From positions 1 to 64,000 of IMG/VR virus record IMGVR_UViG_3300038441_001651: a stretch of 64,000 nucleotides of DNA; one strand, given 5' to 3'. The position numbers and the translations under genes were made by a program. How positions within the stretch are numbered: the stretch's first letter is position 1; every line of letters begins with the position of its first letter. The notes below the pieces were generated by a model. That model was not told where the DNA came from. It saw nothing but the letters and a program-made list of their open reading frames with translations, and searched no databases. Source of the DNA: a virus. Of the stretch, positions 1,979 to 19,864 are shown one piece after another.

Positions 1979-4135
1979 ATGATTCCGTTCGAAGAAATGG
2001 AATATCACCCGGACGTGGAGGAGGTGGTGCGCGTTCTGTGCGAAAAGACACAGAGTTCGAACCACCTGTTCTTCCGCGTCTTGACGACGTTCCATATGTG
2101 CATGATTGCAGCGCAAATGCGCGTTCGCATTCGTACGCATGATCGTGGTGACATTCCTGTCAACATGTACGCCCTGAACCTGGCCACCTCTGGTGCCGGC
2201 AAGGGGTTCTCCACCAACATCCTGGAAAAGGAAATCACCAACCGCTTCCGTGAAAGCTTCTTGGAGCAGTTCCCCTTCACCGCGGAACCTAACCTGGAAA
2301 AGCTGGCGCTGAAGCGTTGTGCCCGTGACAACACGGACTACGACTTCGAGCTGGACAAAATCAAGAAAGAGTTCGCCTCCCTTGGCCCGTTGGTTTACAG
2401 CTTCGATTCTGGTACGCCGGCAGCCGTCAAACAGATGCGCCACAAGCTTCTGTTGGCAGATGCTGGCTCGGTCAACCTGATCATCGACGAAATTGGTTCG
2501 AACCTCACCGCCAGCGGCGAAGTGCTGACCACCTTCCTCGAACTGTTCGACATGGGCGGCATTCGCCAGAAGATCACCAAGGTCACCGGTGAAAACATCC
2601 GTCACGAGGAAATCCACGGCAACACGCCAACGAACCTCATGATGTTCGGTACTCCGTCTAAATTGCTTGACGGCGGCAAGACCGAAGAGGAACTGATGAG
2701 CCTGCTGGACACCGGCTATGCCCGGCGCTGCTTCTTCAGTTACGGCAAAGAGAGCACCCGCGATCTGAGCCTGACTGCAGAGCAAGTCTACGAGCGCATG
2801 ACCAACAAGGCATCCTCGACGTTCATCGACGACTTCAGCGAGCGCCTGGGCTACCTGGCCGACGGCCACAACATGAACACTGTGCTGTCCATGTCGAAGG
2901 AAGTCAGCCTGATCCTGATCCAGTACAAGATCGACTGTGAGCGGCTCGCTGCAGGGCTCCCTGAGCACGAAGAGCAGCGCAAGGCAGAGATCTCCCACCG
3001 CTACTTCAAAGCGCTGAAAGCGGCCGGTGCGTACGCCTTTATCGACGGCTCCCCGGAGCTGACCGAAAAGCACCTCTACCACGCGATCAAGTTGGCTGAA
3101 GACAGCGGTAAGGCCTTCGAGCTGTTGCTGTCCCGGGAACGCCCATACGTCAAGCTGGCGCGCTACATCGCCAACTGCGGTACCGAAGTCACCGAACCGG
3201 ACTTGATGCAGGATTTGCCCTATTACAAGGGCAGCCAGGCAGCACGCGCCGACATGGTGAAGATGGCCATCGCCTGGGGCTACAAGAACAACGTCATCAT
3301 CAAGAAAGCTTTCACCGATGGCATTGAGTTCCTGCGGGGGGAAACCTTGCGGCCTACCGACCTCACCAAGCTCACTGTGAGCTATGTGATGGGCGGACCG
3401 GGCGAACACCCGGCTCATGGTTACAAGAACCAGCAGGCCCCTTGGACGCAGCTGGAGCGCCTGGTAACCAAAGACGGTATGCACTGGCTCAACCACCATG
3501 TGAACGGCGGCCACCGGACGGAGGATACCTGTCTTCCTGGCTTCAACATGATCGTGCTGGACATCGACGGGTCGATGAACCTGGCCACGGCCAAGATGCT
3601 GATGAAAGACTACGCAGCCATCTTCTACACGACCAAGCGCCACACCGACGACGAAAACCGTTTCCGTATCATCCTGCCAACCAATTACGAGTTGCGCATG
3701 GATGCCAAGGAATACAAGGAATTCATGAAGAACGTGCTGGAATCACTGCCGTTCGAAGTGGATGAGTCGTGCACCCACCGAAGCAAGAAATGGATGTCGA
3801 ATGACGGTCATTTCGAGCAGACCGAGGGTGAACTGTTCGATGTGTTGCCGTTCATCCCGAAAACCAGCAAGAACGAAGAGCGCGTCCAGCGACTGGGTTC
3901 CCAGCAGCAGATGGACAACCTCGAACGCTGGATCATCAACAACACCGGCGATGGCAACCGCAACGTCATGCTTCACCGCTACGCGCGTCTGTTGATCGAA
4001 GCCGGCAAGAACTGGGGCGAGATCAAGGACCTGGTTTGCAGCCTCAACGATAAGTTGGCGGACAAGCTCACCGAAGCCGAGATCCTAGGCTCTATCATGA
4101 CCACTGTCGGCAAAGAACTGTCGGCGCGTCCTTAA
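1979..4135 (+). CDS. Primase/helicase-like replication protein (N4 gp43-like)
   Basis: Large replication protein of 718 residues. The N-terminal half is a P-loop ATPase: Walker A SGAGKGFS with K75, and Walker B LIIDEIG with D170. The C-terminal part has VLDIDGS (D528, D530) and a later RFRIILP stretch near R561, resembling the metal-binding aspartates and the downstream basic strand of archaeo-eukaryotic primase-polymerase folds. It fits the N4 gp43 slot between exonuclease and RecA-like ATPase. The start has GGAGG at about 1968-1973. ATPase assignment is firm; the primase part is inferred from motif and context. Confidence 0.75.
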   Translation: MIPFEEMEYHPDVEEVVRVLCEKTQSSNHLFFRVLTTFHMCMIAAQMRVRIRTHDRGDIPVNMYALNLATSGAGKGFSTNILEKEITNRFRESFLEQFPFTAEPNLEKLALKRCARDNTDYDFELDKIKKEFASLGPLVYSFDSGTPAAVKQMRHKLLLADAGSVNLIIDEIGSNLTASGEVLTTFLELFDMGGIRQKITKVTGENIRHEEIHGNTPTNLMMFGTPSKLLDGGKTEEELMSLLDTGYARRCFFSYGKESTRDLSLTAEQVYERMTNKASSTFIDDFSERLGYLADGHNMNTVLSMSKEVSLILIQYKIDCERLAAGLPEHEEQRKAEISHRYFKALKAAGAYAFIDGSPELTEKHLYHAIKLAEDSGKAFELLLSRERPYVKLARYIANCGTEVTEPDLMQDLPYYKGSQAARADMVKMAIAWGYKNNVIIKKAFTDGIEFLRGETLRPTDLTKLTVSYVMGGPGEHPAHGYKNQQAPWTQLERLVTKDGMHWLNHHVNGGHRTEDTCLPGFNMIVLDIDGSMNLATAKMLMKDYAAIFYTTKRHTDDENRFRIILPTNYELRMDAKEYKEFMKNVLESLPFEVDESCTHRSKKWMSNDGHFEQTEGELFDVLPFIPKTSKNEERVQRLGSQQQMDNLERWIINNTGDGNRNVMLHRYARLLIEAGKNWGEIKDLVCSLNDKLADKLTEAEILGSIMTTVGKELSARP

Positions 4136-6372: not shown

Positions 6373-6935
6373 TGGCCAGCCTCAGTGTAGCGGGCATGGA
6401 CCCGTCCTCTCGCAACTGGGGCATTGCAGGTGGTACCGTCTGTACGGTGACCGGCAAGCTGACCATCAAATCCCTTCGGGTAGTGCGTAGCATCGAAACC
6501 AAGGGCAAGCAGGTACGCCAGAGTTCCTCTGACCTGAGCATGGCAAAACAGCTGTATGAGGGAGTCCTCCCGTATATGAAGGCGCGTGTCATCTGCGCCG
6601 AGATACCGGTCGGTTCACAAAGCTCCCGTGCATCACTTTGCTCCGGCGTCTGCATTGGCATCCTGGGCAGTTTGCGCAACACCTCGCAATTCATTGAAGT
6701 ATCGCCCACAGAGCTGAAAGTAGCTTCGCACGGCAGCAAGACTGCCACGAAGAAACAGATGATCGCCTGGGCAATGAAAGCCCACCCAGAAGCCCCGTGG
6801 CCTCGCAAGAGCAATGGCGAAGTCCTCCTGGGTGACGCGGAACACATGGCTGACGCCGTGGCCGCTATCTATGCTGGTTTGGCTACAGACCAGTACAAAC
6901 AACTCGTTCAATTCCTACAAGGTAACGAAGCATGA
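6372..6935 (+). CDS. RuvC-like Holliday junction resolvase
   Basis: A 187-residue RNase H-fold nuclease of the RuvC type, expected to resolve branched DNA made during replication and packaging. The first acidic motif is GMDPSSRNWG (D10), followed by the strand ICAEIPVGS with its glutamate, and a C-terminal HMADAVAAIYAG with the last aspartate, the usual order D...E...D. Length fits RuvC-like phage enzymes. It lies between the gp49-like gene and a small SSB-tail-like gene, overlapping both by one to four bases. Confidence 0.8.
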   Translation: MASLSVAGMDPSSRNWGIAGGTVCTVTGKLTIKSLRVVRSIETKGKQVRQSSSDLSMAKQLYEGVLPYMKARVICAEIPVGSQSSRASLCSGVCIGILGSLRNTSQFIEVSPTELKVASHGSKTATKKQMIAWAMKAHPEAPWPRKSNGEVLLGDAEHMADAVAAIYAGLATDQYKQLVQFLQGNEA

Positions 6936-7574: not shown

Positions 7575-8018
7575 ATGCTGGGTAAACTCGCTGGACGTCT
7601 CTTCCGCGGCGCCAAGAAAGTGGAAAACCGCGACCTGATGGAAGCCATCGTTGGTGGTGGTTTGCTGGTTGCAGCCGCCGATGGCGAGATCGAAAAAGAC
7701 GAGCTGACCAAGCTCGAAAAATTGATCTCGGGCAACGAAAACCTGAAGCACTTCGGCGCCGAAATCGGCAAAACCATCCGCCGCTTCTCCGACCTGCTGG
7801 ACGGCGATTGGCTGGTAGGTCGCTCGAAGATCCTGCGCGAACTGCGCGACATCCAGGGCAACGACGAACACGTCGAAGACGTGGTGCTGAACATCCTGGC
7901 CATCGCCAAAGCCGACGGCGAAATCGAGCCGGAAGAGCGCAAGGTGATCGAAGAAGTTGCGCGTGAGCTGGGCTACCGCCTGAGCGAAGAACACTTCGAA
8001 ATCCGCAAGGGCGCCTAA
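7575..8018 (+). CDS. TerB-like domain protein
   Basis: A 147-residue protein of the TerB-like fold. Two EF-hand-like helical repeats are visible: VAAADGEIEKDELTKLE near residue 35 and IAKADGEIEPEERKVIEE near residue 115, each with acidic clusters that could bind metal. TerB proteins are named from tellurite resistance operons but are widespread and associated with membrane or stress complexes; no tellurite function is implied here. It is followed one base later by a small membrane protein, a pairing that may be functional. Confidence 0.75.
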   Translation: MLGKLAGRLFRGAKKVENRDLMEAIVGGGLLVAAADGEIEKDELTKLEKLISGNENLKHFGAEIGKTIRRFSDLLDGDWLVGRSKILRELRDIQGNDEHVEDVVLNILAIAKADGEIEPEERKVIEEVARELGYRLSEEHFEIRKGA

Positions 8019-8019
8019 C

Positions 8020-8223
8020 ATGCGCTGGCTTAAAGCTGGCGCCTGGCTTGCTGTACCAGTGATCTTCGTCTGGGTCGTGCTTACCCTGATCGGCACCGCA
8101 CGGTGTGCGATCTACGGTAGCTCCACCGAGCGCGAAACCCGGTACAGTGGCTTCGTGGGCTGCATGGTTAAAACCAACCATGGTTGGGTACCGCGCAGCG
8201 AACTGCGTAGCTCTGCAGAGTGA
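8020..8223 (+). CDS. Small membrane protein, 67 aa
   Basis: Single-pass membrane protein with an N-terminal hydrophobic segment AWLAVPVIFVWVVLTLIG (about residues 8-25) behind a short basic N-terminus, followed by a roughly 40-residue polar tail with two cysteines (ARCAIYG, FVGCMV). The tail could face the periplasm. It starts one base after the TerB-like gene stop. I cannot assign a function; its location near the tRNA and structured RNA may be incidental. Confidence 0.65.
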   Translation: MRWLKAGAWLAVPVIFVWVVLTLIGTARCAIYGSSTERETRYSGFVGCMVKTNHGWVPRSELRSSAE

Positions 8224-8974
8224 TAGGGTATTAGTTGCCCGGGAGTCACGGAGAGCCCCGATGTAGCGCAGGCAACACCTATCAACCGGTTTACCCGTTC
8301 CGGCCAAAAACGGGTCTTTATGGGGATGTAGCTCAGCTGGCAGAGCAGAGAACTTCTAAATCTTGTGTCCCGGGTTCGATCCCCGGCATCTCCACCACAA
8401 ACTACAGCCGAGGGCTGTTTCCCTTAAAAATGCACAATCCCGTAACCGGAACGGAGCGAAAGTGCGAGGAAACAGTCCTCGGGTGCAGTTTGCACCATAA
8501 CCCTATTCATTTATCACTATATGTGGTTCAGGCGTTCAGAAGCCCTGGAATAGGGGGCAAAGATACAATGCGTTTACGCGGTAAGTAAGCCGCACCAATA
8601 GTCGATTCACCATTCGCGATCACGTAAGTAAACGTGCGCCAAGCTGACGCATTTCGCGAAAAACATCTGAATGAGAAACAAAATATTCATCTACGACTGC
8701 GAGTAAGCGGTCTCCGTAAAACATGCGAAGATTCAAAAAGGGCGCTGACAAATCGCCCGATCAAGAAGCCGAAAGAGTAATTTCGCAACAGAAGACAGTT
8801 GTGCGTCTTCTGCGCAGCCGGAAACCGTGTGAAGTGGCGCTTCACCCAGAAAACTCTTTAGCAAGCTGACCGTAAGGAGGTTTGCGGTATGGAGGGTGTT
8901 CTGGAACTGCAGTTGGTCCACCGAAAGGGCAGGGCCGTGGGAAGCTGAGGATCAGCTGCAGTTCCTGTACACCC
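8222..8974 (+). ncRNA. Large structured non-coding RNA enclosing the tRNA (GOLLD-like candidate)
   Basis: About 750 nt have no credible gene but dense complementary arms. Seen directly: GATAGG 8222/CCTATC 8278 with TTGCC/GGCAA inside; ACCCG 8293/CGGGT 8311; a 15-bp stem 8408-8422 with 8468-8482 (one G-U); GTGCA/TGCAC around 8483-8495; CCCTATTC 8501/GAATAGGG 8548; GCGG 8578/CCGC 8590; GGGCG 8740/CGCCC 8754; AGAAGAC 8790/GTCTTCT 8805; GTGAAG 8829/CTTCAC 8840; and a closing helix 894-912 of the 8 kb block with 956-974 (16 pairs around a 3x3 internal loop). Several GNRA-type loops occur. A tRNA lies inside, as in GOLLD RNAs of phages and prophages. The class assignment is inference; the structure is clear. 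Confidence 0.6.
8322..8397 (+). tRNA. tRNA-Arg (anticodon TCT)
   Basis: Full cloverleaf of 76 nt with encoded CCA at 8395-8397. Acceptor GGGGATG/CATCTCC (one G-U), D-stem GCTC/GAGC, anticodon loop CTTCTAA at 8353-8359 giving TCT, T-arm CCGGG-TTCGATC-CCCGG. The base pair at the bottom of the anticodon stem (A8352-A8360) is mismatched. It would read AGA arginine codons, rare in GC-rich hosts. Confidence 0.93.
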
Positions 8975-8993
8975 ACCAACGAAAGGAGCTTTT

Positions 8994-9470
8994 ATGTCCC
9001 AAGATCGTCAAAAAATTGAGAACAATCACACTGTCGCCGCCAGCCTGCGTGAGTTGTCCCAAGCTGTTCTTAACCTGACTGCCGCAAACCAGTGTAAAGC
9101 TGCCGACAAAGTGGCCAACATCATTATTGCTCTGGTCGACAAAACTGAGCTGATCAATGAAGACCGCGAGTCCGTATCTCAGCAAGGCGACCATCAAGCG
9201 GAAGATCACGGCCCCGGTGACGCCACCTTGCTTGAGTCCATCTTCCGCAGCCTGGCCAGCACTGATCTGGCGGCTGAACTGAAAGAAAAGATCATCAGCC
9301 CCGGTGCACCAAGCTCCGCGTGCGACTGTGGGGTGTGCCAACCACAAACCCTGAAAAGCGCCTTGGAACAGGTAGAGGGCGGTGTCGATACCGGTGACCT
9401 GTATATCAACGACAAAGGCCAGGTATACATCAACGGCAATCTGGTGGGTTACGCGGTAATCCGTCGCTAA
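8994..9470 (+). CDS. Hypothetical protein, 158 aa
   Basis: Unrecognised protein beginning MSQDRQKIENNH. The N-terminal third is helical; residues about 105-120 contain a tight cysteine group (SACDCGVCQP) that could bind metal; the C-terminus is beta-like (GDLYINDKGQVYINGNLVG). Strong AAAGGAG precedes ATG 8994. The leader of its mRNA is the closing helix of the structured RNA at 8222-8974, so RNA folding could influence its translation. The stop overlaps the next start (TAATG). Confidence 0.7.
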   Translation: MSQDRQKIENNHTVAASLRELSQAVLNLTAANQCKAADKVANIIIALVDKTELINEDRESVSQQGDHQAEDHGPGDATLLESIFRSLASTDLAAELKEKIISPGAPSSACDCGVCQPQTLKSALEQVEGGVDTGDLYINDKGQVYINGNLVGYAVIRR

Positions 9471-9676
9471 TGCGCGGCATCCGCCTTCTGTTCGGCGTAA
9501 TGCTGGGCATTGGGGCGGTGCTTGCCTTAATCACGACGTTCATTGCTGTAGGGTATGCATTGAAGATCATTGCTGCCCTTGCGGCAGTGCTTGGAGTGTT
9601 TGCCCTGGTGATCTTTCTGGTTTGGGCAGCTATCCGCGAATTCGTGATTGACCCATTGAAAAAGCCCCCTAAATAA
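9470..9676 (+). CDS. Small two-span membrane protein, 68 aa
   Basis: Very hydrophobic 68-residue protein with two membrane segments, about residues 6-30 (LFGVMLGIGAVLALITTFIAVG) and 33-55 (AALAAVLGVFALVIFLVWAA), and a basic proline-rich end DPLKKPPK. Its last codons lie inside the terminator stem. Size and topology resemble small holins or inner-membrane takeover proteins, but there are no lysis genes beside it, so I give no function. Confidence 0.65.
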   Translation: MRGIRLLFGVMLGIGAVLALITTFIAVGYALKIIAALAAVLGVFALVIFLVWAAIREFVIDPLKKPPK

Positions 9677-9688
9677 GGGGGCTTTTTT
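9661..9688. terminator. Bidirectional terminator between replication genes and vRNAP
   Basis: Stem GCCCCCT 9664-9670 with AGGGGGC 9676-9682, flanked by A-run and T-run, so it can stop transcription on both strands. It separates the rightward operon from the leftward vRNAP gene, whose stop begins at 9694. Confidence 0.85.
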
Positions 9689-9691
9689 GTT

Positions 9692-12600
9692 TTACAGCAT
9701 CTTGATTGCCGGCAGCTCTTTGAGGGAGCCGATGAAACCAAGTGCACCATCTTGCATCGGGTTATTGCCGATCTTATTCAGCCAGTTCGAATCCATGACG
9801 GATTGCAGGCCGGAGAAGAAGTTGTCCGCAACACCGAGCATCAAACCGCGTGCTGGGTGTTCCCGTACCAGACGCATGATGACTTTCTGGATTCGGAGGT
9901 AGTACTTGGTGAACATCACTAGACCCATGTCGTTCAGGTACTGCAAAGTACGGTGCGACGGCAGGTCATAGTTCACGAAGCTTTCTTCCGCCAGTTTCAG
10001 TGCATCAGCGTGGCTCAGAGGGTCTTTTACCCGGGTAGTCGCATGCTGGTACAGCGCATAGCGAGCAACCAGGTCAGACAGCTGAGTTGTCTGACTCAGG
10101 AACTTGTACGTGGCGGTGTCGTGGGTCATGTAGACCTGCTTGCCGACAGTACGCACCCAAGCCGGTACCTGCGAGGTGAACCGGTCGAGCTTACGCTCGA
10201 ACTGTGCCTTGTAGGTGTAACGGTCGTCATCAACCTCCACATCTTCCACGATGGTTGGCATCAAGCCAGCATCGATCAGCGGTTTGATCGGGTTACGCGC
10301 CAAACGATCCCGCAATTCCACCAATTCTTGCTCAGCCGGTGCACGGTCAGGGAAGTAGCCTATATCCAGCGCTTGTTGCAGCTGCATCGCACGCTTCGAG
10401 TCTTTGCGGTAATCCAGTGCGCCCTTGATAGCCACAGCATGGTACTGAGCTGCATCGCGCAGAGGAACACCTTCCCATGCCAGCAAAGTCATGTTCGACA
10501 TGATGTTGCCTGCCAGTGTCAGCACGTTCTTGATCACGAGGATGTCTTTCATCTCTTTGACCAAGGCCTGCATGATGTCTTCAGCTTGCCCGACCCGCAG
10601 TGCGGCTTTCGCGCCGAACATTGCTTCAGTGATACCGGTCAGCACCTTTTCCATCAGGTTGCGGTCAGCTGGCAGCACCTGGAAGGCGTTGGTCAGGCTG
10701 AATTTGCGATAGCCCAGGATCAGGTCCAGTTGGTCGGCCGGCACGTACATCGCGTCGTCTTTCCACACTTTCTTGATCTCGCGCTTGGTGCTTTCCGGCA
10801 ACAGGCGATACATCTCAGCAATCTGCGAATCAGCCGAGTCGGCAGACACACGCAGGTAAGAAGCTGGACGTTTGGTGTAGTCAGCCTTGTACTGATCGTA
10901 CAGGGAGCGCACCACGTCAGCGTTCTGGTTTGCCGAGCTGACTTTATCCACGATCTGTCCGGCCAGGACTCCCATCACTTGATCCATCGAATTATCGCGG
11001 TCCAGCAGGACATCGCGGTTGTGTTCGATCATCAGGTGACGGTAGTCCGCAATTCGACCGTCAGGTGCCAGGGTGGGGGCCATGTGGCCACCAGTTGCCT
11101 TGCGTGGGTCGTAGTTCGCACCGCGGGTGAACAGTTCGTCGATTGCCTGGGCTTTCGCTTGGGCAATCTGCTGGCGCATGGCCACGGAAGTGGTCTGGGT
11201 GCCTTGCATCATGTTCAGCGCTTCAGTGACCGGGCTGGAACCTTTGGCTTGCATGCCGGTGAACGACAGGGCACCAGTCAGGATACCCATTTGGCCAGCA
11301 CCACGGCGGGTCATCAGAACACGGTTACCGCCCTTCAGCGCCTTCACGTTTGGGTCCATCTGCAGGCGGGATCCTACGGTGAACCCAGCACGCACATGGG
11401 CTTCTACGTCCTTGGCTTCCACCAGCAAGACTTCGATCTTGTTGTCGTGGATCTCGGGCACGTAGCCGCTCTGTTGTAGGGCCTCGGTACCGTTGAACAG
11501 GTCATCGGTCGATTTCTCTTGCAGGCCCTTGTGGAGCTTCAAAAGGAAGTCAATACCGTTGCCGTCGTCCTGGCGGTTCATCTCGGTGCGCAGAACCTGC
11601 TTGGCGTGGTTCACGTCGGTGTCCGCGCTGTACTCGATACCGTAGACCGCCATCAGCTGATCCAGCACTGGCACCAGGTCCGCAGCCACAGCATTGGCCT
11701 GACCAGCTTTCTTGGTACCGTACATGGCCGCAATGTTGCGGGTGGACAGCATCAGGTTGGCCGAGGTCGAACCGCCCACAACCTTATGGTACGCCAGGTC
11801 TTTGGTCTGGCTGATCATGTACTGGCTGAAACCAGTGAGTGCAGCAACCTGGTTCTCCAGCTCAGTACGGTACGCGGCCATTGCCGAGCGATCTTCCATC
11901 AGGTCGCGCAGACCGGCCACACCTTTGGCTGCAACGATTGCCTGGGCGTTGGTGCGCAGGAGGACCTTGGTCATGGCATCGCGCTGCGGTTGGGTCAGGT
12001 CCTGGCCACCATTGTTGAAGGCAGCGTTCACAGCCGACACGGTGTTCTCAATGACAGCCTTGCGCTCCTGCTCGATGGCTTTGGCGCCCTTGAACAGTTC
12101 GGTAGCCAAGTTGCGGGAGTCGTAGTTGCCGCGCCATTCGGTCAGCAGGCCCATGGCCAAACCATGGCGATTACGTAGCGAAGCATCTCGCACCTTGGTC
12201 ACATGGTCGAGCACGTCATCAAGGCGATCGCCGGCCAGGGTGGACAGGGCCACAGAGGCAGCGCGCGCACCCGGGATACGGGAGTTACGCAGCATCTTGG
12301 ACTGACCCAGGGCGTCCAGCTTCTCGCGCACAGTACCAGCACCGCCGGTGATGTAGGCTTCAGCTTGGTCCATCAGGCCTAGGCGACGGTCTGCAACACG
12401 AGCCTTGCGCTTGGCTTCGATATCTACCAGCTGCTCCACCAGAGTGCTCAGCGCTACGTTGCCGGCCATGCCCGGGGTCACATGCGTGGCCAGGGATGCA
12501 AGGCGGGTCATCAAGCGGCGGAACAGTTCAGTGAGGCGGCTGGCCCACGGCAGCGACTTCAGCTCAACCTCTTGGTTTGCAGTCGAGAAACCAAGGACAT

Positions 12601-15600
12601 GACGGACTTCGGCCGAGGCCAAGCCCAGCGCAGCAAAGCGAGCCAGGTGGTTCGACTTGCCAGCAACCGGGGCAGCCGGGCGGAAGATCAGGTCGTACTT
12701 GGCCTGGGCGATGTCTTTCTCTGCCTGGGTAGCGGTGCTCCACTCGCCTTGCAGGAAGTTGGCCGGTTTCAGGGTAGCTTTCGCCTCCTTGTACAGGTTC
12801 TCCAGGCCTTGGCGAATGAACACAGTTTCCTTGGCGTTCAGCGCATGGGTGACGGTCGCTTCAACCGATTCCAGTACGAAAGCTTCCTGCTGCGACAGGA
12901 TGAACTGGCTGGCTACGGCATCCGAGCTGAATGGCAGTTTCCCGGTGGCCGAAGCCTTCAGGAACACATCCATTGGGGTAATTGCACGGTTGGCCGAGGC
13001 CTGCTCTTTGAATGCGCCGTACGGACCGTAGATAGGCTCGGTCACCGAGGTCAGCAGGTCTTTCAGGTAGGCAACGTGTGCACCGGAAGCTTTGGTGCCC
13101 GGGAGGTTACCCAGCTCTTCGAATACCTGCTCGGCGGTCATGGCGTTGACGTGATCGACGGCATCTTCGTACTTGTGGGTACGGGAAGCGCGGGCATCAC
13201 GCACAGCAGCCGCTTCTTGGAACAGGGCAGCCGAATTGGCAACCAGGTTGGCCAGGCCGTTGTTGTTCGCTGGTTTGTTGTCACCGAACAGCATGGTGGT
13301 CAACTTGCCGATGAACGACTTCAGGCCGTCCAAGAACGAGCGGTTACGCTGTTCTACTTGGATTTGAGCCAGCACATCGCGCTGGAACGCCTGGTTCGTG
13401 AGGCCCCAAGCCAGAAGCTCATGGACGTTCGAGGTAGCGTTGCGGAACTGGGCCGACAGTGCACCGTTGTTGCCGATGTGCTCAGCAGCCTTGGCACGGA
13501 TGGCTTCCAGGTCAGCAACAGCACGACCAATAGCAGTGTTCTTGCCTTCATGGGTATCCACCAGGTTGGCCAGGGCAGCGTGCACCAGTTCGTGGGTCAG
13601 CAGCTCCGGGGTGATCCCCGACTCTACGAACTCAGGCGATTTGATGAACAGTGCCGACGAACCGTTGCGCTGGGCGAACCAACCGCGGGACTTGTCCACA
13701 CCTTCACCGAATGCACCCTCAGGGCCGGTCTCGGCGGTAACGTAGGTCACAGGCATGTTGCTTGGGATGCCTTTGCGGGCCATCTTCAGCACAGTGCGCT
13801 GGAACGGATCCTGGACGTACTCAACCAGCGCGTCGATCAGGTTGTGCGCGGACAGTTTGTTCTGGCTCAGCAGCTGGACGAGGTTCACATCGGACTGCAC
13901 CACTGGTGCGCCGAGTTGGCCCCATACCGACACCTTGCCCACGGTGGCGGCACGAACAGCTTCAACCACTTCAGCAGCTTGGTTTTCCGGCAGGATTTGC
14001 ACGGCATCGGCCAAGGTACGGTTACCCGAAACCATGGAGTCAATGACCTGCTCAACCTGTGGAGTTTGCTCCACGGAAGCCAGGGTGTTCAGCGAAGTGC
14101 TCGGGGCCAGGGTGGTTACCGAGTTGTTCGACAGAACAGCAGACTGGCCAGGCTGATATACAGCCGGATCTACAGCAGCAGCCACATCCAGTTGCTCGGC
14201 GATAGCTTCAGCGGCAGGGTTGAAGGTCGAACCAACTTCCTTCAGCTTGGTGACGGCAGCAGCACGGTCTTCCGGGGTAACCACGTAGGAACCCAGGTCG
14301 GTAGCGTATTGGCCAACGGCCTGCATCTCAGCCAGGATTTCCAGCTTGTCGGTGTCAGCTTGACGCGCAGTCTCGCGGATGGCCACAACCTGGTCGTAAA
14401 CCGAGCCACGTTTACGCTTGGCACGCTCAATAGCCTTCTCGCGCAGCTTCGGTTGGATCCGGGCAGCGAGAGCAGGGTTTTGCATGACACGCGCAGCACC
14501 TTGCAGCACTTCGTCGAACATGGTCGCCATGGCGGTAGCCGACGAGTAGTTCAGCATGGTGTTATAGGTGGCTTTGTTCAGCTCCTGGCCAACCTTAGCC
14601 ACGTTGTTCAGATCCACGCCCAAGGCGTCGTGCACGTTCAGCGCTTCCATGGTTCCGTACACGGCAGACGCAATCGCCGAGTCGCTGGAGTGAATGGAGG
14701 TGATGAATGGCATTACACCCGGATCGATCTCGACAGTGCGGGTCGAGGACACGCGGGAGGAGCCGATACCGTTCATGGTGCCGTCTGGTGCAATGGTGTT
14801 CACCATGTCACCGAATGCGACTTCCTGCTCGAACGGCAGGGACGAATCCAGCTTGCGCTGAGTCTTGGCCATGTACATGCCAGCTTCACGCTGGCCGGCA
14901 GCTGAAGACATCGCAGTCTGTAGGATTGGCGCCATGTCACCCAGGATTGCATCAACCTCAGCCTGTTGGCCTTTGGTCAGGGTACGGATGGCGTTGCCGG
15001 CAGTGTTGCGAGCTACTTCACCGCTGTTGGCTTCGACATGCTCAATCACGCCGTCCCGGACAGCGTTGAAGATCTCGAAAGACATCTGCGCGGTCTGGTT
15101 GATCACGTTGCGGCGAGCAATGAAGGTGGCGTAGGTATCGCCCAGCGCAGCCTCGGTTGGCTGGCCCAGCAGCTCGTAGAACGACTTCTTCAAGGCATTC
15201 TTCTGCACATCGCTCAGCTTGGTTTCAAGTGCACGCTCGTAGCCCATTTGGGTGTCCAGGGCGAGCTTCTTGTTGACCAGCAGCACGTTGACCGCAGTCA
15301 GCAGCTTCTTGGTGGCTTCATTGTCGCGGGCAGCAGCTGCACGCTCAATGCTGTCGTAGGTGGCGTCGATGAAGGCGTCAGCCATACCTTGCACAGCAGT
15401 AGTCGGGTTCGAACCAAACATCAGTGCAGTCAGCGGCTTCTTGATGATGTTCCGGCCTTTGGAGGTCACGGTGTTGTCATCGTTCTTCAGCTGACCGGTG
15501 ATGACCTGCATTGCGTCCAGCATGTTGGTGTTACGACCAACCAGGTTGTTCAGGGCACCGGCAATCGACGACTCGTACAGGTCCAGGTTTCCCATGGCCT

Positions 15601-18600
15601 TGTAGTCGTTGAACTGCACCAGTTGCTCGCCATCCTTGTTCAGCTGACCGAGTTGGAAGAATCCACCTTGGTTCAGGGTGTCATAGCCTTTGGCGCCCAG
15701 CATCAGCAGGGAAAGCATCGGACCGTTGGTCACACCGTCCACTTCACCCATCATTGCGGTGGTGAACGAGGGTTTGCCGTCTTGCTCGGCGATGCGTTGC
15801 TCTGCTAGGGAAACCAGTGCATCAAACGAGTGGAAGTTCTCGCCGGCGGCCTTTACAGCAGCGACGATGGCTTCTTCGTTGGTTGGCGTATCGCTGTCAC
15901 GCAGAACGTCGACCAGTGCGTTGATACCGTCCTGGATAACCGGGGCGGAGATCATTGCATCGTAGCCAGCCAAAACCACGGAGGTAGTGTTGGCTTCGGT
16001 CTTCTTGCCGAACGCCTCCATCACGCGCAGCTTGAAATTGTCCATGCTGGCTTTATCGGCCAGGACAACATCAGCATTCCAGCCAGCCATAGCCAACATG
16101 TGGCGATGGATCTTGGAAGTCTGCGGGTTCACGACGTTGGCGGTCAGACCTACACGCTGAGGTTTCCATACCGAGCGACCGAAGAACAATTCCTGCTCCA
16201 GGCCGTTGGTCGATGGGTCACTGGCCATGGTGTTCACGAAAGCGTCGAAGTTGTCGATCTGTTGGATCAGACCGTCGTTCTTCGCTTCACGGGAAGCCAG
16301 GTTCTCAACGTGAGTTGGGGTATCAGTGGTCGAAACCACACCGCCCATGGCGTACAGCGCCTGTTTGGACAAACGGCCCCACACATGCCACATGTTCTGA
16401 CGAACGACGTGTGCTTTGGCGCCTTCTTTGTCCAGAATCTCCACCAGCCCTTTCGGGATGGCTTGACCAGTACGCTTGGCGAATTGTTGGTTGAATTTGA
16501 CCGGGGTGTAGCTCGGCTCAACACCTTTGGTTTCCACGGACATCAACCGGGCCAGCACAGACTGGGAACCAGTGGAACGCTCGCGGATACGCTTGACGAT
16601 GGGCGCAGGTTCACGCTTACCGTTCACTTCCTGCGAAACCACGCTGTAGAAGGTGTGGGTTACCCGCGGGTTACCTTTTTCACCCGAATTCATCAGCGCT
16701 TGCAGGGTTGTGTCAGCAAGTTGCTTACGCTCCAAGATACCCAGCTCAACCATGGCAGCAAGTGCCCGGGCGCCGACAGAAGCTTCCAGTTTGGACAGCT
16801 CAGCGTTGGTGCCTTGTTGGTTTGGGCGAAGACCCAGGGCTTGGGCAATACGTCCGCCCAGCTGCGATGCCAGCACCGATTCGCGGGTGCCAATCAGAGA
16901 CAAAGTCTGGTACGCAGCAGGCGAGACTTCATCGTCGAGGTCTTTCAACAGGATAGCGTTGATTGCCTCGTCGGAGTTACGCAGTTGGGTTGCGTTTTCA
17001 TTGGCCCACGAGAAGATGCCGAAACTCACGGCAGTTGCCAGGTTCTCGTCGATTTGCCCATCCGCATTTTGGAGGAACTGTGCCATGTCCCGATAGAAAA
17101 AGTCCGGGCGTTTGGCGCGAGTAGCAGTCACTCGGAATTGCTTGCGAACCGCCTGCGCAGAGTATTGCGCGAAGTTGAAGAAGGCGTTCAGGGCGGCCGT
17201 TTGAGGGCCGGACAGTGGATCTTTCTGGTCAAGGAAGTCCTGGACTGTTGCTTCGCCAGCTTTGATGGCGGAAGCAAAGTCTTTGACAGCTACGAGAGGA
17301 CGCAGGCTGGCGTCGGTGTCGTTACCCGATTCCTGGCTGAACAGCTCGGAAACCAAGTTGACGGAGGTGTAGTTGTCGGCAGTCACTGCCACACCAGTTT
17401 GCTCGCCGATTGCGGTGAGCTTGCCCGCGGCACGATCCGTGGCGCTGTCAGCTTGCTCAACCTGGGCCGGGGCCTCTTCTGGTACGACCGCAGCTTCTTG
17501 GTCAGCGGCCGGCGCAGCAGTCTCTTCTACAGCAGGAGCTACCTGTGCAGATTCAACGGCTGGTTCAGCCACAGCTTCAGTTGCTGGGACAATGACTTCA
17601 CCCTGCTCGAAGTCACCCGATTGCACAACCGGGGCAGCAGCAGGAGTTGGAGCAGCGTTTACCAGAGCTTCGAATGCAGCAGCAGTCTTTGCCAGCACAT
17701 CCGCTTCAGCAGCTACACCGTCGCGCAGCCGGAAGGAACGGGCATCAACCACCAGACCACCACGGGCTTTAAGGGCTTGGCCCTTCAAATCCGTTGGACC
17801 CCATTCGCCTTGCTCATTCCGCACGATGTTGATCGACTTGTTGGTGCCCTTCACTTGCTCATAGGCAGTGGTGATAGCGTCCAACTTCGAGACACGACTG
17901 GCGGCGAATGCGCGAATGCCATCGACTTGCGAGCGGGCTGCGTCTTCGTTGCCATTGGCCAGGGCCATACGGATTGCATTGCGATACTGCGGGATACCCT
18001 TGAAACCATCGCCACCAGTGGCAATGTCGGAACGTACGCCGGTAAGGCCTTTCAGGGCGTTGGCTGCCACCTGTGCTTCGCTGAAGAGGCGCATGGCGGT
18101 ACGTTGGCCGACGGACAGGGCTTCGCTCTGTGCAAGAGCATCGGCAACCTGGGTGTCTACGGCTTCAGGATTGGTCATGGTCAGGGTCAGCAAGCGGTCA
18201 GCCGCTTGAACATCACCTGTCTGTGCTTCATTTGCCATGGCTTCAACAGCAGCCGGCTCAGGGCTGGTGTCTACGCGCAGGCGCTCACCTGCTTGTTGTA
18301 CGGCGTCCAGCTGCGACTGCAAACGAGCCAGCTCAGCTTCGTCAGCCTTGCGTTGCTCGGGGGTGTACGACGACACAGCCTCGTGGATTTCACGCATATC
18401 CGCAACTTCAGCTTGGTCAACGCCAGCGGCTTCCATTTGCGAGATCAGCTCACCAATTTGCGCAACGCGCTCAGGCGAGGTGTTATCCAGGCGTGCTTGC
18501 ACCGAAGACAAGTCAGCAGTCAGGTTTTGCTGGATTTCGTCAGCCTGGGCCAGGTTCGCAGCTACATCGGCACCTTCGTTCAACGACATCTGGTGCAGTG

Positions 18601-19864
18601 CTTCAACAGCGCGCACTGGATCATAAGTCGCGGACTCGGTGTCGGCGAGCGACGAAACATCGCCAGACTCAACAGCAGAGGTAAAGGCTTCTTCTACCGA
18701 GGCACGATTCTTGGCCCGGGCAGGTTCAGCACCGCCAAGTTCGGCGGACAGCTGGAAGTTACCGCCAACCAGTGCACCAATGGTGGCACCTTCGACAATT
18801 TCTTCCAGAGTTGGGTCACCCAGCTTGGCTCGCGCTTCAGCATAGGTTTGGTAGCCTTCAGTGATGCCTTCTTTGGCGGCAGCGCCACCAACAGCACCAG
18901 CGCGGCTCATTGCACCGCGAGCATTACCCGAACCTGCAGCACGCATGCTGCGTAGTACAGAGGCATCACCCACCAGTTCGGCAGCAGCTGCGGATGCAGC
19001 GAATGCACCCATTTCAGTACGCTGGCTTGCGTCGGGGATCTGACCGTCGTTGTTCAGGTAGTACTCTTGCAGGCCTTCGCGGTATAGGTCAGCACCGTAA
19101 CCGGCGTTGGTACCTACCAGCAAAGCAGGGTTTACAGCGGCAGCTGCCAGCTGTGGGATGTTCTCGACGGTGTACTCAGCAACCGCTTGTGGCGATTGCA
19201 GGCCGGTGGCCAGGGCATTACCTGCAGTTTTCAGGATGCCTTTGGCACCGGTCAGCAAACCATCAACGATCTCACCATCTTCCAGCTGATAGCGGGCATC
19301 ACGCAGTTGCGCAACACCATCAGCAGTTTCACGACGAATATCACGGCTCAGGGTATCCCGGGCAGTGTTGTCGACGATGCTGGAAATGTCGAAGAAGTCA
19401 GCCACATCTTGGCCAACTTTCTGCAGACCTTGGGCACCTTGCAGGCGCTCCATGAAGGTTTGCGGGATACCGTCGTCACCGGGTGCTTGTTGCGCCAGGA
19501 GAGCCAGGTCATTTTCGTTTTCAGTGCCGGCCATCCAGCGGTTGTACGCCTGCACCTGCTCTTCCGGTACGGAAGCCAAGGCACCAGAGGAAATGGCGTC
19601 AATTGGCAGGGTTGCCAGGTTACCGGCCAGGCGGCTTGCGCCAGAAACCAAGGAAGCACCGAGGTTGGCCGCACGGCCAATGGTGTCGTCAGCGTCGTAG
19701 CCCATTTTTTCAATCAGCGCCTGCTTCTTCTGTTCAGAAGCTACAGCTACCTGGGCAGATTTCTGCTCGGTATCAAAAAGGGGGCGGAAGCCCCCAGTTT
19801 GTGCTGTAGGCAGGCCGGCTGGGAACAATTGGTCGAAACCGTAGTTCTCGTCACCGTTTGCCAT
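9692..19864 (-). CDS. Virion-encapsulated RNA polymerase (N4 gp50-like)
   Basis: Giant 3,390-residue protein, the hallmark of N4-like phages. It is packaged in the capsid, injected with the DNA and transcribes early genes from hairpin promoters on single-stranded or supercoiled template. T7-type catalytic motifs occur in order: motif A EVDGVTNGP with D1376; motif B R1471 and K1475, then F1483-G1484 (the same spacing as T7 R627, K631, Y639-G640); motif C NVHDALGV with H1745-D1746. About 1,100 N-terminal and 1,400 C-terminal residues flank the polymerase; the N-terminal part has coiled-coil and a Pro-Ala-Glu linker near 780-850. First gene of the virion block by position, likely last transcribed. 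Confidence 0.96.
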   Translation of the reverse strand: MANGDENYGFDQLFPAGLPTAQTGGFRPLFDTEQKSAQVAVASEQKKQALIEKMGYDADDTIGRAANLGASLVSGASRLAGNLATLPIDAISSGALASVPEEQVQAYNRWMAGTENENDLALLAQQAPGDDGIPQTFMERLQGAQGLQKVGQDVADFFDISSIVDNTARDTLSRDIRRETADGVAQLRDARYQLEDGEIVDGLLTGAKGILKTAGNALATGLQSPQAVAEYTVENIPQLAAAAVNPALLVGTNAGYGADLYREGLQEYYLNNDGQIPDASQRTEMGAFAASAAAAELVGDASVLRSMRAAGSGNARGAMSRAGAVGGAAAKEGITEGYQTYAEARAKLGDPTLEEIVEGATIGALVGGNFQLSAELGGAEPARAKNRASVEEAFTSAVESGDVSSLADTESATYDPVRAVEALHQMSLNEGADVAANLAQADEIQQNLTADLSSVQARLDNTSPERVAQIGELISQMEAAGVDQAEVADMREIHEAVSSYTPEQRKADEAELARLQSQLDAVQQAGERLRVDTSPEPAAVEAMANEAQTGDVQAADRLLTLTMTNPEAVDTQVADALAQSEALSVGQRTAMRLFSEAQVAANALKGLTGVRSDIATGGDGFKGIPQYRNAIRMALANGNEDAARSQVDGIRAFAASRVSKLDAITTAYEQVKGTNKSINIVRNEQGEWGPTDLKGQALKARGGLVVDARSFRLRDGVAAEADVLAKTAAAFEALVNAAPTPAAAPVVQSGDFEQGEVIVPATEAVAEPAVESAQVAPAVEETAAPAADQEAAVVPEEAPAQVEQADSATDRAAGKLTAIGEQTGVAVTADNYTSVNLVSELFSQESGNDTDASLRPLVAVKDFASAIKAGEATVQDFLDQKDPLSGPQTAALNAFFNFAQYSAQAVRKQFRVTATRAKRPDFFYRDMAQFLQNADGQIDENLATAVSFGIFSWANENATQLRNSDEAINAILLKDLDDEVSPAAYQTLSLIGTRESVLASQLGGRIAQALGLRPNQQGTNAELSKLEASVGARALAAMVELGILERKQLADTTLQALMNSGEKGNPRVTHTFYSVVSQEVNGKREPAPIVKRIRERSTGSQSVLARLMSVETKGVEPSYTPVKFNQQFAKRTGQAIPKGLVEILDKEGAKAHVVRQNMWHVWGRLSKQALYAMGGVVSTTDTPTHVENLASREAKNDGLIQQIDNFDAFVNTMASDPSTNGLEQELFFGRSVWKPQRVGLTANVVNPQTSKIHRHMLAMAGWNADVVLADKASMDNFKLRVMEAFGKKTEANTTSVVLAGYDAMISAPVIQDGINALVDVLRDSDTPTNEEAIVAAVKAAGENFHSFDALVSLAEQRIAEQDGKPSFTTAMMGEVDGVTNGPMLSLLMLGAKGYDTLNQGGFFQLGQLNKDGEQLVQFNDYKAMGNLDLYESSIAGALNNLVGRNTNMLDAMQVITGQLKNDDNTVTSKGRNIIKKPLTALMFGSNPTTAVQGMADAFIDATYDSIERAAAARDNEATKKLLTAVNVLLVNKKLALDTQMGYERALETKLSDVQKNALKKSFYELLGQPTEAALGDTYATFIARRNVINQTAQMSFEIFNAVRDGVIEHVEANSGEVARNTAGNAIRTLTKGQQAEVDAILGDMAPILQTAMSSAAGQREAGMYMAKTQRKLDSSLPFEQEVAFGDMVNTIAPDGTMNGIGSSRVSSTRTVEIDPGVMPFITSIHSSDSAIASAVYGTMEALNVHDALGVDLNNVAKVGQELNKATYNTMLNYSSATAMATMFDEVLQGAARVMQNPALAARIQPKLREKAIERAKRKRGSVYDQVVAIRETARQADTDKLEILAEMQAVGQYATDLGSYVVTPEDRAAAVTKLKEVGSTFNPAAEAIAEQLDVAAAVDPAVYQPGQSAVLSNNSVTTLAPSTSLNTLASVEQTPQVEQVIDSMVSGNRTLADAVQILPENQAAEVVEAVRAATVGKVSVWGQLGAPVVQSDVNLVQLLSQNKLSAHNLIDALVEYVQDPFQRTVLKMARKGIPSNMPVTYVTAETGPEGAFGEGVDKSRGWFAQRNGSSALFIKSPEFVESGITPELLTHELVHAALANLVDTHEGKNTAIGRAVADLEAIRAKAAEHIGNNGALSAQFRNATSNVHELLAWGLTNQAFQRDVLAQIQVEQRNRSFLDGLKSFIGKLTTMLFGDNKPANNNGLANLVANSAALFQEAAAVRDARASRTHKYEDAVDHVNAMTAEQVFEELGNLPGTKASGAHVAYLKDLLTSVTEPIYGPYGAFKEQASANRAITPMDVFLKASATGKLPFSSDAVASQFILSQQEAFVLESVEATVTHALNAKETVFIRQGLENLYKEAKATLKPANFLQGEWSTATQAEKDIAQAKYDLIFRPAAPVAGKSNHLARFAALGLASAEVRHVLGFSTANQEVELKSLPWASRLTELFRRLMTRLASLATHVTPGMAGNVALSTLVEQLVDIEAKRKARVADRRLGLMDQAEAYITGGAGTVREKLDALGQSKMLRNSRIPGARAASVALSTLAGDRLDDVLDHVTKVRDASLRNRHGLAMGLLTEWRGNYDSRNLATELFKGAKAIEQERKAVIENTVSAVNAAFNNGGQDLTQPQRDAMTKVLLRTNAQAIVAAKGVAGLRDLMEDRSAMAAYRTELENQVAALTGFSQYMISQTKDLAYHKVVGGSTSANLMLSTRNIAAMYGTKKAGQANAVAADLVPVLDQLMAVYGIEYSADTDVNHAKQVLRTEMNRQDDGNGIDFLLKLHKGLQEKSTDDLFNGTEALQQSGYVPEIHDNKIEVLLVEAKDVEAHVRAGFTVGSRLQMDPNVKALKGGNRVLMTRRGAGQMGILTGALSFTGMQAKGSSPVTEALNMMQGTQTTSVAMRQQIAQAKAQAIDELFTRGANYDPRKATGGHMAPTLAPDGRIADYRHLMIEHNRDVLLDRDNSMDQVMGVLAGQIVDKVSSANQNADVVRSLYDQYKADYTKRPASYLRVSADSADSQIAEMYRLLPESTKREIKKVWKDDAMYVPADQLDLILGYRKFSLTNAFQVLPADRNLMEKVLTGITEAMFGAKAALRVGQAEDIMQALVKEMKDILVIKNVLTLAGNIMSNMTLLAWEGVPLRDAAQYHAVAIKGALDYRKDSKRAMQLQQALDIGYFPDRAPAEQELVELRDRLARNPIKPLIDAGLMPTIVEDVEVDDDRYTYKAQFERKLDRFTSQVPAWVRTVGKQVYMTHDTATYKFLSQTTQLSDLVARYALYQHATTRVKDPLSHADALKLAEESFVNYDLPSHRTLQYLNDMGLVMFTKYYLRIQKVIMRLVREHPARGLMLGVADNFFSGLQSVMDSNWLNKIGNNPMQDGALGFIGSLKELPAIKML

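Follow-up and report, generated by a model that had tools for sequence, protein, structure and literature searches.

Giant structured RNAs of phages fall, to our knowledge, into few classes. One of these, GOLLD, is marked by expression that increases during lysis and by assembly into a homo-oligomeric cage. The two closest to the RNA described here are GOLLD and ROOL, whose function is given as not known in the available text of PMC12286853. As described there, GOLLD has a universally conserved 3' region and a less conserved 5' region, with tRNAs sometimes lying in the linker, and ROOL is large, ornate, carried by phages and prophages, and often found near tRNA islands. Our searches of the open-licence PMC literature turned up no account of a large RNA in N4-like phages. 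The available text of the genome paper of phage 98PfluR60PP lists one tRNA and lacks the words 'noncoding', 'non-coding' and 'intergenic' (PMC6325676), and that of PMC3715699 does not use 'intergenic' or 'non-coding' for LUZ7, LIT1 and PEV2.

Here we describe a locus of an N4-like phage that resembles GOLLD in its constant 3' part, variable 5' part and occasional tRNA, and that we regard as a GOLLD-like analogue. In our reading, positions 8222-8980 of the analyzed window encode a large structured noncoding RNA – apparently of an undescribed class – that probably acts in trans as a scaffold with putatively decoy-like arms.

A gene-free region beside the virion RNA polymerase gene

Our window covers the first 64,000 bases of a virus record 72,851 bases long and is identical, over this region, to an IMG/VR contig. 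Features below lie on its + strand unless stated otherwise. A stretch of ~770 nt (8224-8993) contains no credible gene: its borders are the stop of the upstream open reading frame (ORF) at 8223 and the start, at 8994, of the next credible gene. A first-pass annotation made from the sequence had called the phage N4-like and the gap free of credible coding frames, and both calls held. A 3390-aa ORF on the minus strand (9692-19864) matches the virion RNA polymerase of phCDa – a member of the Schitoviridae and the closest named relative of the window phage – and of other Schitoviridae, which identifies the phage as N4-like. Two ORFs inside the gap were searched and neither has a convincing family match: ORF 8235-8585 matches nothing in Pfam and only weakly one family in PHROG (E 0.0098, 19 residues), and ORF 8896-9075 matches neither Pfam nor PHROG.

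The gap belongs to the final part of a rightward run of genes, ahead of a terminator-like site at 9666-9681. No sigma-70 promoter was found near the RNA between 7500 and 9800. The downstream gene (8994-9470, 158 aa) has its ribosome binding site at 8982-8988 and is a neighbor of the RNA, outside it. Just upstream of the RNA region, a gene at 7575-8018 encodes a TerB-like protein (Pfam PF05099, PHROG 632) that occurs in many other phage contigs too.

Compared with 20 shuffles, the fold energy of the gap has a z of -4.43. In a wider test its z of -6.18 was the lowest among 42 + strand segments of 770 nt. Among the 41 other + strand segments, of which one overlaps the gap, values go down to -5.41, and the gap read on its minus strand gives -4.95, so stability alone would not prove an RNA. 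We rejected it as proof and treat it as suggestive.

A conserved 3' core covaries among related phages

To place the region among its relatives, we searched viral contigs with the C-terminus of the polymerase, which returned 16 loci, and with an alignment, which returned 65. Loci with closer polymerases have a noncoding gap at the same place, and gaps with this RNA are 750-1450 nt long. We identified, next to the virion RNA polymerase gene, a conserved 3' core – helices H2 and H3 and strands A, B and C – that is shared by 12 distinct phage sequences. Three named isolates carry the RNA: the Pseudomonas fluorescens phages phCDa (gap 2527-3540) and 98PfluR60PP, and the Pseudomonas sp. phage Littlefix. 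The carriers form a group of Pseudomonas-type N4-like phages (Schitoviridae: Shizishanvirus, Littlefixvirus and uncultured relatives).

A sequence profile recognised the core in Littlefix (E 1e-10), 98PfluR60PP (6e-14) and locus L092 (3e-7) and missed that of L096, which was found by motif only. DNA searches of phage records returned only these three isolates, tRNA matches aside. Our model R1 gave 14 strong matches (77-135 bits) among 68 sources, with the next score at 14.7; these are 11 sequences used to build the model, a second Littlefix record (L002) and two near-duplicates (L089 and L094), and the 68 sources held no independent new member beyond them. LUZ7, PEV2, Ka3 and the more distant polymerase loci tested had no strong R1 match. 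Run on 11 whole records, R1 gave a single match each in five. A match to a Terriglobia MAG in a scan of genome contigs was attributed to chance, as it covers model positions 85-109 only, at 15.7 bits. We set aside a survey of gaps without ORFs next to the polymerase gene in other Schitoviridae: its ORF scoring was crude, and many of the gaps it listed lie away from the place of the RNA.

In the window, the core comprises H2 (8829-8845; GTGAAG/CTTCAC), strand A (8846-8856), H3 (8861-8885; GCAAGC..GTTTGC, inner CC/GG), strand B (8894-8912) and strand C (8956-8974), with which the RNA domain ends on its 3' side, shortly ahead of the ribosome binding site. 5' of H2 lies a further core helix, H1 (8789-8812; CAGAAGAC/GTCTTCTG), whose place is taken in relatives by hairpins of other sequence, judged by eye and uncounted.

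We aligned the 12 distinct core sequences, leaving out near-duplicates (alignment A2). Over the 24 pairs of H2, A:B and H3, 95.8% of 283 cells are paired, a count of sequences rather than events in which seven of the 12 rows (L085-L088, L090, L095 and phCDa) are closely related. Two-sided changes affect 13 of the 24 pairs, including five of six in H2 and four of eight in H3 (6 + 2 pairs, 100% of cells paired); A:B is paired in 91% of cells. None of 500 shuffles equaled the alignment on four of five measures; the remaining one, further pair types, was equaled by 264 of them. Sliding the partners by 1-3 columns left 42-49% paired. Across the larger 3' module of nine relatives, 21 of 74 predicted pairs have two-sided changes, and the B:C helix has them in 6 of 35. 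Core cells include 43 G-U and 0 A-C, which indicates from the alignment that the conserved core is read on the + strand.

It is this comparison of sequences, rather than fold stability, that establishes a structured RNA at the gap. The first-pass annotation had proposed such an RNA and suggested a search for covariation in related phages; the relatives covary strongly.

Two elements in which one strand has two possible partners

In strand-exchange riboswitches and attenuators, one strand pairs with either of two partners, and the two pairings are mutually exclusive. Pairing predictions reveal two elements of this kind in the RNA, each with one strand that can pair upstream or downstream. These elements, together with module exchange and recurring RAGYAA hexaloop hairpins, go beyond the first-pass annotation.

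Element 2 belongs to the core: A follows H2, B follows H3 and C closes the domain. All 12 sequences give B two predicted partners: A, at -17.3 to -29.8 kcal/mol, and C, at -32.5 to -47.1 kcal/mol. The window's B:C pairing had been noted before as a closing helix, and we recovered it as 8894-8912 with 8956-8974, with 6 + 10 pairs on the two sides of a symmetric 3x3 internal loop. The sequence of B differs among groups (GGGTGTTCTGG in the window, GGTTATATCGG in 98PfluR60PP), and the pairing options are kept. When nine sequences were cross-paired, the own or a sister partner was usually best; exceptions are the C strands of L088 and L085, for which the window's B is a better partner than the B of the same phage, and several rows in which the B of L092 comes close to a tie. 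In seven of the nine sequences, at most 24 of 1000 shuffled A strands equaled the A:B pairing (15 of 1000 in the window), and the difference was insignificant in L090 (143/1000) and L001 (133/1000). Alignment A3 alone holds little covariation for A:B.

Element 1 lies in the 5' half, where a hairpin comes immediately after a long helix, up:b, and the 5' arm of the hairpin can pair with the upstream strand of that helix as well. The window's helix (8402-8484) encloses an arm and contains the 15-bp stem reported earlier, which our fold reproduced at 8408-8422 with 8468-8482 (15 positions, one G-U); its upstream strand extends to 8402. Hairpin b:c (GGTGCAGTTTGCACC, 8482-8496) is directly 3' of it. 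The folded topology is the same in 15 of 15 gaps, in all of which element 1, located by eye and without a shuffle control, has 4-8 positions that could pair both ways, a count that in the window includes a spurious small stem. On rechecking the window, pairing with the upstream strand was predicted at -15.6 kcal/mol against -8.6 for the hairpin. L091 has element 1 and lacks the core.

Such mutually exclusive pairings are typical of switches, and both in the window (8974 versus 8982) and in groups A and B only a few bases separate the end of strand C from the ribosome binding site. The RNA might then be a cis-acting leader or switch in which A, B and C regulate translation of the downstream small genes (158 aa and 68 aa). 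We think this unlikely. The distance from C to the start codon is tens of bases in Littlefix and 98PfluR60PP, and 750-1450 nt with exchangeable arms far exceeds what a leader needs. Conservation of the downstream gene falls far short of that of the core, and the gene differs in kind between the window and its relatives, so that the RNA is not kept with a conserved regulated gene; the window's 158-aa protein weakly matches two of nine other proteins at the same place (E about 1e-3 to 1e-4). A plain leader is disfavored because of this poor conservation. Known riboswitches and attenuators share the single strand with two exclusive partners, whereas here there are two such elements, no terminator-like site was found at strand C on the + strand, and there is no conserved downstream gene.

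Exchangeable hairpin modules in the 5' part

The 5' end of the window RNA folds into a predicted hairpin domain (8222-8283) with the outer stem GATAGG/CCTATC (8222-8227 with 8278-8283); the first bases of this stem are also part of the upstream ORF's stop codon. Enclosed in the stem is module M1 (8234-8276), with the interior CG...CGATGTAGCGCA and a covarying closing stem (GTTGCC/GGCAAC in the window). A search for its interior CG...CGATRTRGCGCA located M1 in 20 of 170 loci, which are all copies of just seven phages and lie in the RNA region; its sequence motif occurs once in the window against 0.01 expected. In six phages the five pairs of the closing stem are 100% paired, four of them with two-sided changes. 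One further occurrence, in L171 (one of six contigs with the M1 pattern), was rejected as chance, lying antisense inside a 716-aa ORF that looks portal-like by eye.

The position of M1 differs among phages. It lies within the 5' part in the window and L087, the central arm in L088, L089, L008 and phCDa, and, in L091, another gap ~1.6 kb upstream. A second module, M2 (CAGAAACG...GAAACAATG), is located in the central arm of L087, L095, L090 and L094; in L088 and L089 it sits in the 5' part. Blocks of the M1 and M2 types match between gaps with position shifts of about 210-360 nt. These matches demonstrate, at the level of predicted hairpins, that the variable 5' part is built of modules whose position differs among phages.

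L088, L089 and L008 have near-identical sequences over their 3' ~560 nt, except in the M1 arm of L089. Their 5' 200-300 nt are unrelated or poorly related, with the M2 block there common to L088 and L089. Near-identical 3' halves joined to unrelated 5' halves imply that arms have been replaced on a constant body. A decaying tRNA cluster – tRNA gene debris and recombination scars with incidental structure – would fit the mosaic 5' half and the tRNAs and tRNA-like T-arm sequences present in several gaps. Debris would neither keep paired two-sided changes, and so is already contradicted by the covariation of the core, nor leave the 3' half near-identical as arms change, and we consider this explanation very unlikely.

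Between element 1 and the core, the window fold alone predicts a hairpin with internal structure (CCCTATTC/GAATAGGG, 8501-8555). Four hairpins capped by RAGYAA hexaloops follow, at 8578-8593 (GCGGTAAGTAAGCCGC), 8621-8636 (CACGTAAGTAAACGTG), 8695-8712 (GACTGCGAGTAAGCGGTC) and 8770-8785 (CGAAAGAGTAATTTCG). RAGYAA-capped hairpins with at least 4 pairs number 16 in 13 gaps, including the window's four, against 0.36 expected from 100 shuffles (sd 0.62, maximum 3), a descriptive count given that the pattern was chosen post hoc and the 13 gaps are mutually related. GNRA-capped hairpins are not strikingly enriched (17 over 13 homologous gaps, 9.5 +/- 2.7 in shuffles).

In Littlefix (L093), two tRNA T-arm-like sequences lie inside the B:C hairpin. 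Its close relative 98PfluR60PP has a different B:C insert, which resembles that of L092.

tRNA content and comparison with known RNA classes

The tRNA-Arg (anticodon TCT) of the first-pass annotation is present at 8322-8397, in the variable 5' half, and is also found by Rfam; its cloverleaf covers only 76 of the ~770 nt. ARAGORN placed a tRNA inside two of 13 gaps (the window and L096), and further relatives have a tRNA beside the gap. The tRNA is thus an occasional, not a constant, part of the RNA. A tRNA interrupted by the RNA was rejected as a candidate, since ARAGORN, allowing introns to 1200 nt, returned nothing but the ordinary tRNAs that the window and L096 contain. The second Littlefix record contains a tRNA-like match of 134 nt (6753-6886), longer than a plain tRNA and with an apparent large insertion.

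The size and elaborate fold of the region would suit a self-splicing intron, a tmRNA or another known catalytic RNA. At gathering scores, Rfam found only the tRNA in the window and no family besides tRNA in nine relatives. No split gene surrounds the RNA, and ARAGORN found no tmRNA in 13 gaps. The permuted tmRNA model of Rfam scored 20.1 bits in the window against the 47 needed, in a match that overlaps the 3' part of the tRNA. We rejected self-splicing RNA and tmRNA on the Rfam and ARAGORN results, and hold a known catalytic RNA of any kind to be extremely improbable.

The first-pass annotation had proposed a member or analogue of GOLLD. Membership fails and likeness stands: the Rfam models for GOLLD and ROOL gave no match in the window even at E <= 10 and none in relatives at permissive thresholds, on which we rejected membership in either class, and the layout is as the available text of PMC12286853 describes for GOLLD – a large phage RNA with a conserved 3' part, a variable 5' part and occasionally a tRNA near or inside it. 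GOLLD nevertheless differs from the RNA described here, which has no covariance-model match, carries arms at differing positions and has two recurring three-strand elements. With ROOL, as characterized in the same text, it shares large size, ornate structure, carriage by phages or prophages and the frequent proximity of tRNA islands that marks ROOL (PMC12286853), and again there is no covariance-model match.

A divergent GOLLD or ROOL that the Rfam models miss – an RNA multimer forming a cage that encloses a tRNA or other cargo – would explain the shared layout, with its conserved 3' part, variable 5' part, occasional tRNA, phage carriage and ~800 nt (available text of PMC12286853). Against this stand the lack of any match at permissive E-values and the presence of a tRNA inside only two of 13 gaps. 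Such a divergent member seems to us quite improbable.

Possible counterparts in more distant phages

N4-like phages of P. aeruginosa have a shorter structured element, at 3131-3546 of L104 (PEV2) and 3145-3542 of L103 (LUZ7). Like the RNA of the window, it lies beside the virion RNA polymerase gene, and a long hairpin (GGAGTGCTCTGG..CCAGAGCACTCC), comparable to B:C, closes it ahead of the next gene; it differs in being about 400 nt long and in lacking the R1 core. The available GenBank entry describes PEV2 ORF 67.1, at the same locus, as 'Very strongly transcriptionally expressed'. Because PEV2, LUZ7 and Ka3 lack the core, this note concerns a different, shorter element; we take it as a lead only, its relation to the R1 RNA being unproven. 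At the PEV2/LUZ7 locus, TTGACT and, 17 nt further on, a possible -10 box, seen by eye, lie upstream of PEV2's strongly transcribed stretch.

In L097, whose polymerase is 39% identical, repeated long hairpins on GACCATCATTGAAGCC..GGCTTCAATGATGGT occur at the same place without the R1 core. They occupy the last ~1270 bases before the polymerase stop and are perhaps another ornate RNA.

Discussion

Rfam, protein and literature matches gave no hint of function. Antisense action on other phage genes was rejected: within the 64-kb window the longest complementary match is 14 nt (E 0.15). A mechanism can nevertheless be sketched for a trans-acting RNA. It would be transcribed within the rightward operon that runs to the terminator at 9666-9681. 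Folding co-transcriptionally, the early helices up:b and A:B may be invaded by the later strands c and C, and the RNA may then be released or capped at the long B:C hairpin. More speculatively, the RNA would act in trans as a scaffold that displays exchangeable arms, sometimes tRNAs or tRNA-like, to host factors. The arms would most plausibly be decoys for RNA- or tRNA-directed host functions or defenses, a role that we guess at from analogy and from arm exchange.

A constant body with fast-changing, partly tRNA-like arms suggests contact with something that varies between hosts, and rapid exchange of arms on such a body fits an arms race. We tentatively raise the possibility of a combinatorial RNA: a 3' scaffold, folded by two strand-exchange elements, that carries hairpin and tRNA-like cassettes swapped by recombination and serving as host-facing decoys or ligands. 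If so, the RNA would be a counterpart of variable-surface strategies in the arms race between phages and hosts.

The RNA occurs in cultured phages of a well-studied family, beside a hallmark polymerase gene, which makes its expression, structure and deletion directly testable. Arms that change on a near-identical body are natural experiments on the contacts of the RNA, and the locus would offer phage biology a new giant-RNA system to test.
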